The position numbers and the translations under genes are program-made. Of a DNA stretch of 64,000 nucleotides, positions 45,068 to 47,340 are shown one piece after another. Below the pieces are notes generated by a model. That model worked only from the letters and a program-made list of their open reading frames with translations, ran no database searches and had not been told where the DNA came from. Within the stretch, counting starts at the first letter, position 1, and each line of letters starts with the position of its first letter. The DNA comes from Pyruvatibacter sp. HU-CL02332. Its GTDB lineage: Bacteria; Pseudomonadota; Alphaproteobacteria; CGMCC-115125. The stretch is from the NCBI RefSeq assembly GCF_040362765.1, contig NZ_BAABWK010000002.1, positions 496,001 through 560,000 on the forward strand, read 5' to 3'.

Positions 45068-46102
45068 TCAGAGCGTCAAAACCTCATCTTTTCGCAAGGT
45101 CAATGCGGCCGGCGGTGCGTTGCTTGTGAAATCATATGTCTGCAATCGCCCGGTCCGTTTTGCCCACTGATAGGCTGATTTTCCGCAGGCATTCTGGTGG
45201 TGCCATATGAAATTCGTAAGGCGGCTCAACCGCTGAATCCAGAAGCGCTCAGGAATGGTCTCCCGTGGCGGAGTCCCACCGAGTTCAATGTCGGCAGTGA
45301 TGACACCTGCGCCTTCTGAGTAGTGCATAGAAGCAACCAACTCGCCTTCCCCATTTATGATTTGCGTGTCACCCATCAATTGAGTGCGGGTCCCAACGTT
45401 AAAACGGGAGCCCGGCACCATGAGGTAGCCGCCCTCGAGGGTGCCTGTGTGACCTGCATGCAGGATCGGTGCCCCAATCATTGCCGCCAGTCGGCCCGGC
45501 GTGCGGTGCATCATGCGACCATTGCCTTCATGAAACGACTTTGCGATGGGCTTGAAGACCCACCAGCCCGGGTCTGACCACCAGTGTGATCCGGTCATCA
45601 GCAGGTCAACTTTACCGATGAGCCGCTTGGGCGTCTGTGTGCGGACCATTTCCCAACACACAGCTGCACCGATACGACCCTGGGATGTTTCGATGCAGCC
45701 GTCGTCGCTGCCTCCGACATAGAAAGCGTTCTCCACCATTGTGGGTAGATCTTTGTCGTGGCGGTGGACCGTCCCGTCAGGTTCAACGAGCACATAGGTG
45801 TTGTACACATCGCCGTCGCGCATCTCGAGGTAGGAGCCGCCAATCATCACCTGATTGCGGGTTGCCTTCGATACGAGCATGTCGAGCGCAGGGTTCTCCG
45901 GCGGCAAGGAACACGCAAACAACCGCTCGTCATAAACGATGCGTGTTGTGAAGAATTCAGGGATCGCGATGACCTTCGCGCCCCTTGCAATCGCTTGATC
46001 GATAAGCCGCGACGCCTGTTCGATGTTGTACGGGACATCAGCAACCCGCGCCTCCATCTGCACCGCCGCAACTCGTGTCGTTTCAAATGTCTCCTGAGAC
46101 AT
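45068..46102 (-). CDS. Nitrilase-superfamily carbon-nitrogen hydrolase
   Basis: Predicted amidase or nitrilase with the Glu-Lys-Cys triad: Glu49 (IAIPEFF), Lys117 (HRHDKDLPT) and Cys149 (GAAVCWEMVRT). The TGSHWWSDPGWW stretch after the nucleophile and the Cys-Trp-Glu context suggest an aliphatic amidase/carbamoyl branch; the substrate is open. 344 residues; AAGGAGG precedes the ATG. It follows the small membrane-protein gene by 21 nt, and both are divergent from a TrmB-type regulator that probably controls them. Confidence 0.88.
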   Translation of the reverse strand: MSQETFETTRVAAVQMEARVADVPYNIEQASRLIDQAIARGAKVIAIPEFFTTRIVYDERLFACSLPPENPALDMLVSKATRNQVMIGGSYLEMRDGDVYNTYVLVEPDGTVHRHDKDLPTMVENAFYVGGSDDGCIETSQGRIGAAVCWEMVRTQTPKRLIGKVDLLMTGSHWWSDPGWWVFKPIAKSFHEGNGRMMHRTPGRLAAMIGAPILHAGHTGTLEGGYLMVPGSRFNVGTRTQLMGDTQIINGEGELVASMHYSEGAGVITADIELGGTPPRETIPERFWIQRLSRLTNFIWHHQNACGKSAYQWAKRTGRLQTYDFTSNAPPAALTLRKDEVLTL

Positions 46103-46123
46103 GGGGCAGACCTCCTTTTGCGC

Positions 46124-46504
46124 TTATCGGGTAAGCCACGCACCAACGAGCCACAGATAGGCGGTCGTCATGATGATGAAGGATATGATCGAGAACACCC
46201 GCATACCGCGCTGCTCAGGCAGCGGCTTGGTGGAACAGGCCATGTAGAGGAAGGGCATCGGGTTGGTCCAGGAGCCCACAAGCAATAGCCACCCCGCAAC
46301 CACGGGCATCTCAGGGAACACTGTTGCAATCACCATCTGCAAAATGCCCATGAACACATTGTCGAGGTGATATTGCAGCACCCTCTTTGTGTGACGAAGC
46401 GGTCCGACCTGCTTCCAGCCAGAGTGCATCAGGGCCAAAGGCCACCCCAGCAACACAGCTACTGTGACCTGTATCAGGCCAGATGTGATCAGAATTTCGC
46501 TCAT
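46124..46504 (-). CDS. Small four-span membrane protein, first gene of the nitrilase operon
   Basis: Not firmly recognised. About four hydrophobic segments: SGLIQVTVAVLLGWPLALM, DNVFMGILQMVIATVF, VVAGWLLLVGSWTNPMPFLY and SIISFIIMTTAYLWLVGAWL, with LQYHLDNVFMG between the first two. Size and layout recall hydroxylaminobenzene mutase (HabA)-type proteins, but that is a weak resemblance. Placed directly before the nitrilase, it may handle the same nitrogen compound, by transport or isomerisation. Confidence 0.75.
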   Translation of the reverse strand: MSEILITSGLIQVTVAVLLGWPLALMHSGWKQVGPLRHTKRVLQYHLDNVFMGILQMVIATVFPEMPVVAGWLLLVGSWTNPMPFLYMACSTKPLPEQRGMRVFSIISFIIMTTAYLWLVGAWLTR

Positions 46505-46524
46505 GAGCCGTTTATTCCTGTCGA

Positions 46525-46558
46525 ATTACTTGGACACTTTTTTGTGTCTGGATTACTT
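46525..46558. promoter_or_regulatory. Candidate operator in the nitrilase/TrmB divergent promoter
   Basis: An inverted repeat GACAC-TTTTTT-GTGTC (46533-46548) is flanked by a direct repeat ATTACTT (46525-46531 and 46552-46558). It lies centrally in the 89-nt gap between the divergent genes, where the TrmB-type protein could control both directions. Confidence 0.5.
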
Positions 46559-46593
46559 ATTTTCAATATATTTGGAGATTATATCGGGTCGCA

Positions 46594-47340
46594 ATGTCTA
46601 AATTTTCCGACAGTATTGAAGGCAGTCTGGCCTCTCTTGGCCTTAGCGGCAAGCTGGGGCGTTTCTATGTGGCCGCTCTGAAACTGGGCAGCGCGCCGGT
46701 GCAGCAAGTGGCTCGGGAGGCGGGGATCGGACGCACCACGGCCTACTCGCTCCTTGAAAAACTCAAGGACGAGAAGCTCGTCACCCTCGTCCAGAAGGGT
46801 GGCAAGACACACATGGTGGCCGAAAACCCGGACGTGCTGGCTCGCAACCTGGACGACAAGCAACGCGCGCTATCAGCGATGCTGCCAGATTTGCGATCCC
46901 TATATGACAAGGGCGAAAGCACGCCGCGTTTTCAGGTCTACGATGGCGTCGACGGCATCTCGACGGTGCTGAACACAGTGCTCACTTCGGATGCGGACAC
47001 TGTCCGTGGAATCTTGTCCATGCAGGAACTGCTTGCTTCGCCGGGACGCGATGTCATTGATCGGTTTGTGGCCCAGCGTGTTGCGGCAGGAAAATGGCTC
47101 CATGTCCTGCGATCCAAGGCGGAAGAGACTGACGACATTTGGCAGGACAGTGATGAAGAGAAGCGTCGTGTCCGCTACACCTCTGCTACGGAACCATTTG
47201 TGATGACCCTGTTCCTGTTCGACAACAAGGTGGGCCTCATCTCATCCCGAAAGGAGAACTATGGCCTCATTATCGAAAGCAGCGAGTTCGCCAAGGTGCA
47301 GAAAGCGTTGTTTGATGTGATGTGGCAGGCGAGCGTGTAG
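46594..47340 (+). CDS. TrmB-family transcriptional regulator
   Basis: N-terminal winged helix (about residues 15-75: LGRFYVAALKLGSAPVQQVA, GIGRTTAYSLLEKLKDEKLV) followed by a coiled linker and a C-terminal ligand-sensing domain of the TrmB type (about 100-245, RFQVYDGVDGISTVLNTVL). TrmB proteins are common in archaea and less so in proteobacteria, where they often control neighbouring metabolic genes. The only plausible targets here are the divergent membrane protein and nitrilase genes. The ribosome binding site is weak. Confidence 0.85.
   Translation: MSKFSDSIEGSLASLGLSGKLGRFYVAALKLGSAPVQQVAREAGIGRTTAYSLLEKLKDEKLVTLVQKGGKTHMVAENPDVLARNLDDKQRALSAMLPDLRSLYDKGESTPRFQVYDGVDGISTVLNTVLTSDADTVRGILSMQELLASPGRDVIDRFVAQRVAAGKWLHVLRSKAEETDDIWQDSDEEKRRVRYTSATEPFVMTLFLFDNKVGLISSRKENYGLIIESSEFAKVQKALFDVMWQASV

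Follow-up and report, generated by a model that had tools for sequence, protein, structure and literature searches.

A two-gene unit of a nitrilase-type hydrolase and a small membrane protein, probably related to styrene oxide isomerase, facing a TrmB-like regulator in Pyruvatibacter sp. HU-CL02332

The locus analyzed here lies within a 64,000-nucleotide stretch of DNA from Pyruvatibacter sp. HU-CL02332 (hereafter the window), whose genome comprises 3.4 Mb in 3 contigs. On the forward strand, trmB (46594..47340) encodes a 248-aa winged-helix regulator; on the reverse strand, mem (46124..46504) encodes a 126-aa multi-span membrane protein and is followed by nit (45068..46102), which encodes a 344-aa hydrolase of the nitrilase superfamily. 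The spacer between mem and nit (46103..46123, reverse strand) is 21 nt long and carries AGGAGG, the likely ribosome-binding site of nit, and this spacing, with the AGGAGG placed before the nit start, resembles that of an operon. Beyond nit comes a tRNA-Leu, beyond trmB a gene for a GNAT acetyltransferase, and the unit itself includes no transporter. An earlier note on this DNA had described a TrmB-type gene facing a two-gene operon, and the coordinates and the 89-nt gap proved to be as it had given them, nit being named there though located outside the span of 46124-47340 that the note assigned to the module.

The divergent control region between mem and trmB (46505..46593) contains the dyad GACAC-TTTTTT-GTGTC (46533..46548), which occurs only once in the 64-kb window and represents a candidate operator, flanked by ATTACTT repeats at 46525 and 46552. 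A consensus promoter scan returned one site against 1.0 expected. To the order belong four sampled genomes (G000 to G003), all of one genus, G000 being the window's own and G003 being 81% complete. The regulator, mem and nit are intact and identically arranged in all four, with identities to the window of 96% (G001), 87% (G003) and 74% (G002) for nit, 95%, 94% and 75% for mem, and 98%, 91% and 68% for trmB, in the same order of genomes. Both elements of the gap that had been singled out previously are present, and only one of them is kept: the dyad arms are identical in G000, G001 and G003, with G002 carrying GACA-N8-TGTA at unchanged spacing, whereas the repeats vary among the four genomes. 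A single-query scan of genome contigs with mem returned solely a 94%-identical protein (L007) in a contig of Candidatus Phaeomarinobacter sp.

The N-terminal part of trmB matches the TrmB family (PF01978) at 31.8 bits, against a cut-off of 25.6. Such regulators had been regarded as rather uncommon in proteobacteria, a view that is not confirmed in that form, given that 38 of 96 alphaproteobacterial genomes have PF01978 matches above the cut-off, with only two of the matches listed exceeding 60 bits; at this frequency the TrmB label says little, and the match is that of a generic winged helix. The winged helix is what the protein shares with the sugar regulators TrmB and TrmBL1, from which it differs in its TrmBL1 score (22.3 bits against a cut-off of 650) and in its neighbors, namely mem, nit and the GNAT gene, with no sugar genes. 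Its C-terminal domain is unnamed in the libraries searched and had no PDB relative at E<=0.1.

Full-length relatives of the regulator occur on plasmids of Cupriavidus, Azospirillum and Paraburkholderia (10 records from these three genera, 7 of them matching 80% or more of the query). Two Azospirillum records were examined, and in both the homologue faces an operon of ABC-transporter, flavin-reductase and CN-hydrolase genes (L081:2159-7699; L083:2099-7699), the ABC transporter being SsuA-like. The CN-hydrolase of the first record is Nit6803-like (203 bits against a cut-off of 502.6) and shares 29% identity with nit across 169 columns; the operon could possibly encode a nitrile or auxin-precursor pathway. 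A. brasilense has been noted before to possess a putative nitrilase and possibly a route through indole-3-acetonitrile (PMC3899980). The Cupriavidus homologue faces genes for an AMP-ligase, MaoC, TIGR00366 and a nitronate monooxygenase, and nothing clear surrounds the gene in the unannotated Paraburkholderia record. Neither of the two Azospirillum gaps contains a pattern like the dyad; the Cupriavidus gap contains a single one. It appears rather likely that the regulator controls mem and nit through the dyad. Our literature search returned no paper joining the term 'TrmB family' with nitrilase.

The product of nit matches the CN_hydrolase family at 77.8 bits (cut-off 23.2), and its catalytic triad, E49-K117-C149, is invariant in nine aligned relatives, in agreement with the Glu-Lys-Cys amidohydrolase recognized earlier. 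Around the nucleophilic Cys and the Lys it reads C-W-E and K-x2-P-T-x2-E, as does the solved nitrilase 8uxu and unlike PH0642, which we take to be an amidase; C-W-E is a mark of the nitrile-hydrolysing branch. The triad and both motifs are also shared with NIT4, the cyanide dihydratases and the Nit6803 family, from all of which nit is set apart as a separate subfamily scoring far below every NCBIfam equivalog cut-off. When the nit family profile was compared with the PDB, PH0642 and N-carbamoylputrescine amidohydrolases scored above nitrilases, and the best NCBIfam match of nit is N-carbamoylputrescine amidase, far below threshold (60.2 against 410.25). The predicted structure was poor (pLDDT 41.7). 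Judging from the residues around the active site, we incline slightly towards an enzyme that acts on a nitrile rather than on an amide or carbamoyl compound, nitrilase being the better guess and not a settled one. The pathway for an unknown nitrogen compound that had been proposed thus gains a best guess for its substrate, a nitrile.

The membrane protein matches no Pfam or NCBIfam family at E<=1, NF045734 included, and its relatives give weak matches at most. Its hydropathy profile displays three clear spans and, around residues 64-82, a fourth that is weaker, so that four spans are likely. Eight relatives conserve the first residue, L5, W21, H46, D48, P67, G77, N81, F85, A89, S108 and F109, and the presence of conserved His, Asp and Asn inside putative helices suggests chemistry or cofactor binding. 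A structure predicted from a two-sequence alignment (the window's protein and L007) reached a pLDDT of 56 and had no PDB fold match at E<=0.001.

The histidine and the W-x-N pattern of mem, which resemble those of styrene oxide isomerase (SOI), provided the starting idea for a comparison with this enzyme. Since the idea came from the motif, the motif match is not independent evidence, and shuffles and decoys constitute the test. A first profile comparison, based on 8 and 5 sequences, gave a score of 15.7 that was reached by 25 of 200 shuffles and was therefore not significant, with the residues aligned. Both families were enlarged after this outcome, and the positive result reported here is accordingly a second attempt. 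A search of 210 genomes of the class yielded SOI-like proteins in 11 (E<=0.01), the window's own genome having two; 210 genomes drawn from the class to which G707 belongs (a genome of the phylum draw described below) yielded mem-like matches in 5, one of which we judged to be cytochrome-bd-like. The enlarged profiles, compared with hhalign, comprised 12 mem-like and 28 SOI-like sequences. Excluded were L046 and G079/L038, judged from their sequence to be cytochrome bd subunits, the duplicate or near-duplicate rows L065, L056:934 and L063:2026, and the frameshifted mem of G012; L045 was trimmed by 120 aa, a likely false N-terminus.

With these profiles, the comparison of SOI with mem scored 28.35 (E 4.5e-4, probability 33%), and 33.58 (E 5.7e-5) with query and target exchanged. 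None of 300 shuffles that kept the hydropathy class of each column reached the score in either direction. The window's mem protein alone scored 23.8 on the SOI profile, above all real membrane decoys, the best of which reached 16.7 among 32 membrane proteins from the retrieved loci (after 38 of 70 had been removed as SOI or mem relatives) and 22.3 among 29 from E. coli K-12. The mem relative from Prescottella equi, discussed below, reached only 14.4. In the alignment, H46 falls on SOI H58, W79 on W97 and N81 on N99, H46 and N81 being invariant in the eight relatives, while SOI N64, D95 and Y103 are replaced by M52, G77 and F85. In SOI, haem b is held by H58, and N64, D95, N99 and Y103 surround the substrate (PMC11374702); the ligand of the Rhodococcus enzyme is H57 (PMC12502698).

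SOI/StyC (PDB 8pnu, 8pnv and 30tw; NCBIfam NF045734) is a trimer with bound haem b. Like it, mem is a small multi-span membrane protein, whereas mem is 30-40 residues shorter, lacks an NF045734 match, adjoins no styrene genes and is paired with a nitrilase-type enzyme. As the haem ligand is kept and N64, D95 and Y103 are lost, mem probably has an SOI fold without being a StyC. On the strength of the profile comparison we consider mem a likely remote relative of SOI that probably adds a new branch to a rare membrane-enzyme fold, and with somewhat less assurance we expect it to bind haem. The description of mem as an unrecognised four-span protein thus holds for its number of spans, which is likely, and for the lack of a library family, and gives way to a probable remote relationship. 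The two SOI-profile matches in the window's own genome lie at L053:1483-1980 (C1:2172809-2173255) and L065:1504-2178 (C1:1949743-1950228), with E values of 8e-27 and 5e-8; the one tested scored 102.6 against a StyC cut-off of 150. Judging by such matches, the SOI-like family would seem to be much wider than the styrene degraders.

Across the class, mem was detected in 6 of 385 genomes (E<=0.001) and nit in 5 of 385 (E<=1e-20); the two draws have identical genome handles and were taken as one set. Outside the genus, mem occurs in G012 and G119; nit was found in only 1 of 381 genomes, and this genome, G119, also carries mem; its nit lies on a different contig from mem, with the gene cut by the contig end. 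In G012 (L005:1454-2336), the mem sequence sets in at residue 7 and that of trmB at residue 71, the two abutting back to back; mem shows a frame change near its end, and no nit was found in this genome at E<=1e-20. As we read this sequence, a single deletion took away the start of mem together with the shared promoter and the helix-turn-helix, leaving a decayed mem-trmB relic, and such joint decay of mem and trmB without nit is as expected of one unit. In the phylum draw, mem is present in 3 of 398 genomes, namely the window's own, G547 and G707, and no nit lies near mem in G547 or G707. Co-occurrence of the three genes elsewhere, which the earlier note had proposed to look for, is therefore found in all four genomes of the genus; beyond it, the trio does not persist as a unit and is reflected only in the decayed mem-trmB relic of G012.

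Plasmids provided evidence for a different grouping. Among 72,556 plasmid records, the mem protein had one match, in p1-WH99 of Prescottella equi (26.8% identity, E 3e-4), which taken alone is weak. This mem relative lies directly after a gene annotated as 'carbon-nitrogen hydrolase family protein', with a 4-nt overlap, and a TetR-type regulator comes next. Independently, nit retrieved six close plasmid relatives at 34-45% identity, from Haloglomus, two Rhodococcus, Marinobacter, Prescottella and Acinetobacter, and the same six were recovered with the Prescottella hydrolase as query. Since the mem and nit queries converge independently on the Prescottella locus, a chance association is very unlikely, and since the order is reversed there (nit first) and the regulator is of a different type, nit and mem represent the conserved core.

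The pairing is not general. A small membrane gene directly downstream is absent for four of the six plasmid nit relatives, and a mem relative occupies that place for one. In Marinobacter, the gene of an unrelated multi-span protein and that of the nit relative overlap by 8 nt, with an AraC-type gene nearby; as a relative of mem or SOI this protein was rejected, 31 and 138 of 200 shuffles reaching its score by the same profile method. The protein after the Haloglomus nit relative has 83 aa and looks soluble. Proteins resembling mem are also found without a neighboring nit, and outside Prescottella none of the mem relatives whose surroundings were read adjoins one. Scans of viral contigs with both alignments gave no relative of mem or nit. 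We consider it very probable that nit and mem form a functional pair, and, as judged from these loci, the pair is a unit by itself from which the regulator travels separately. For the self-contained TrmB module suggested earlier, this means that the regulator facing a conserved operon, the dyad and the Azospirillum parallel speak in its favor, whereas beyond the genus the trio is no unit, the Prescottella pair being accompanied by TetR and by no TrmB.

Two further observations concern membrane proteins met in these searches. A second unnamed multi-span family, represented in Marinobacter, Acinetobacter and Tsukamurella (L027:8989-9432, L039:5974-6453 and L040:5956-6390), has a D-T-x-N-Q motif and His residues that are conserved in two of its helices, the Marinobacter member being the one that overlaps the nit relative. 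On a Methylocystis plasmid, a mem relative (L041:6001-6822) has a histidine kinase/response regulator pair on one side and a truncated haemoglobin gene on the other.

The arrangement, its conservation, the catalytic triad and the remote similarity to SOI can be seen in the sequence, and from them we infer how control, haem binding and ammonia release might be combined. The regulator would bind the GACAC-N6-GTGTC dyad and allow expression of mem and nit when an effector is present, which may be a nitrile, its precursor or its acid product. The mem protein would bind haem b through H46, sit in the membrane as the partner of nit, and make or activate the substrate that nit hydrolyses; nit would then release acid and ammonia (or an amide) from a nitrile. 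We consider the unit real and probably a regulated two-gene one, and the pair may serve as a small pathway by which nitrogen-containing chemicals are used or detoxified. As a whole, a small inducible unit of a nitrilase-type enzyme with a haem-type membrane partner is a tentative reading, credible and still short of likely.

An analogy is offered by the aldoxime-nitrile clusters, where the nitrile formed by a haem enzyme is hydrolysed by a nitrilase, in some cases with an AraC-type regulator (NitR) beside them (PMC8955678). The unit resembles these clusters of aldoxime dehydratase, nitrilase and NitR in combining a nitrilase-type gene with a regulator and, should mem bind haem, with a haem protein, and differs from them in having no aldoxime dehydratase, a winged-helix rather than an AraC regulator, and a membrane protein as partner. 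Aldoxime dehydratase (PF13816) is missing from the unit and is not found above cut-off in five of six genomes. The G000 match to PF13816 (L074:1408-2103; C1:1307667-1307837; 26.4 bits, 57 aa) lies inside a protein that is mainly Monooxy_af470-like (143.5 bits). By analogy, mem could be a membrane haem-b enzyme of SOI fold that supplies nit with its nitrile, for instance through dehydration of an aldoxime; this is a speculative and rather improbable variant. Equally speculative is its corollary, that the unit would be a second, membrane-bound form of the pathway, which arose independently of the aldoxime dehydratases that are soluble and is controlled by a TrmB-like sensor, in a marine relative of bacteria that live with algae. 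Judged by titles and abstract beginnings, none of the listed papers that mention both SOI and nitrilase deals with a gene cluster of the two.

Among the other explanations, mem might be a small transporter or exporter of the substrate, the acid product or ammonium for nit, working without cofactor and resembling SOI through general membrane-helix composition. Its small size, its several spans and the lack of a confident fold would suit that role, as would the overlap seen in Marinobacter between a nit relative and a multi-span protein unrelated to mem, as though the kind of membrane partner did not matter, and the weak match of one of eight mem relatives to the L-alanine exporter family AlaE (E 0.014). 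Kinship with AlaE found no support, however, E. coli AlaE reaching only 9.7 with the SOI profile and, over 15 columns, 15.6 with the mem profile, and composition is a poor explanation of a score that no hydropathy-class shuffle reaches; His, Asp and Asn conserved inside helices again suggest chemistry or cofactor binding. We regard a transporter as unlikely.

A little less probable still is an amidase or carbamoyl-type hydrolase serving nitrogen scavenging, with mem as an anchor or an unrelated small protein and no nitriles involved. The PDB ranking of PH0642 and the N-carbamoylputrescine amidohydrolases and the far sub-threshold NCBIfam match point that way, whereas the residues near Lys and Cys agree with nitrilases and not with PH0642, and the regulator's clade is linked independently to a Nit6803-like nitrilase. 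That the trio is merely an accidental neighborhood in one genus, with regulator, mem and nit not cooperating, we hold to be very unlikely: although the intact trio is confined to one genus and mem relatives outside Prescottella lack an adjoining nit where their surroundings were read, nit and mem overlap in another phylum, mem and trmB decayed jointly in G012, and the dyad is kept while the remaining gap varies.

In SOI, the iron of the membrane haem acts as a Lewis acid (PMC11374702), which is an unusual use of haem. If the preferred reading of a nitrilase-type enzyme with a haem-type membrane partner is true, a shorter SOI branch has kept the haem ligand, lost the epoxide-binding residues and become coupled to a nitrilase-type enzyme in two phyla, so that the scaffold does other chemistry as well. 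The nit-mem pair offers a two-gene, easily expressed system for testing that idea, and the sensor with its candidate operator may respond to nitriles or their products. The description of Candidatus Phaeomarinobacter is based on cultures of brown algae and predicts that auxin is made from intermediates which the host supplies (PMC4110880, in whose text the word nitrilase is absent). The unit may bear on the traffic of nitrogen or auxin precursors between algae and bacteria.
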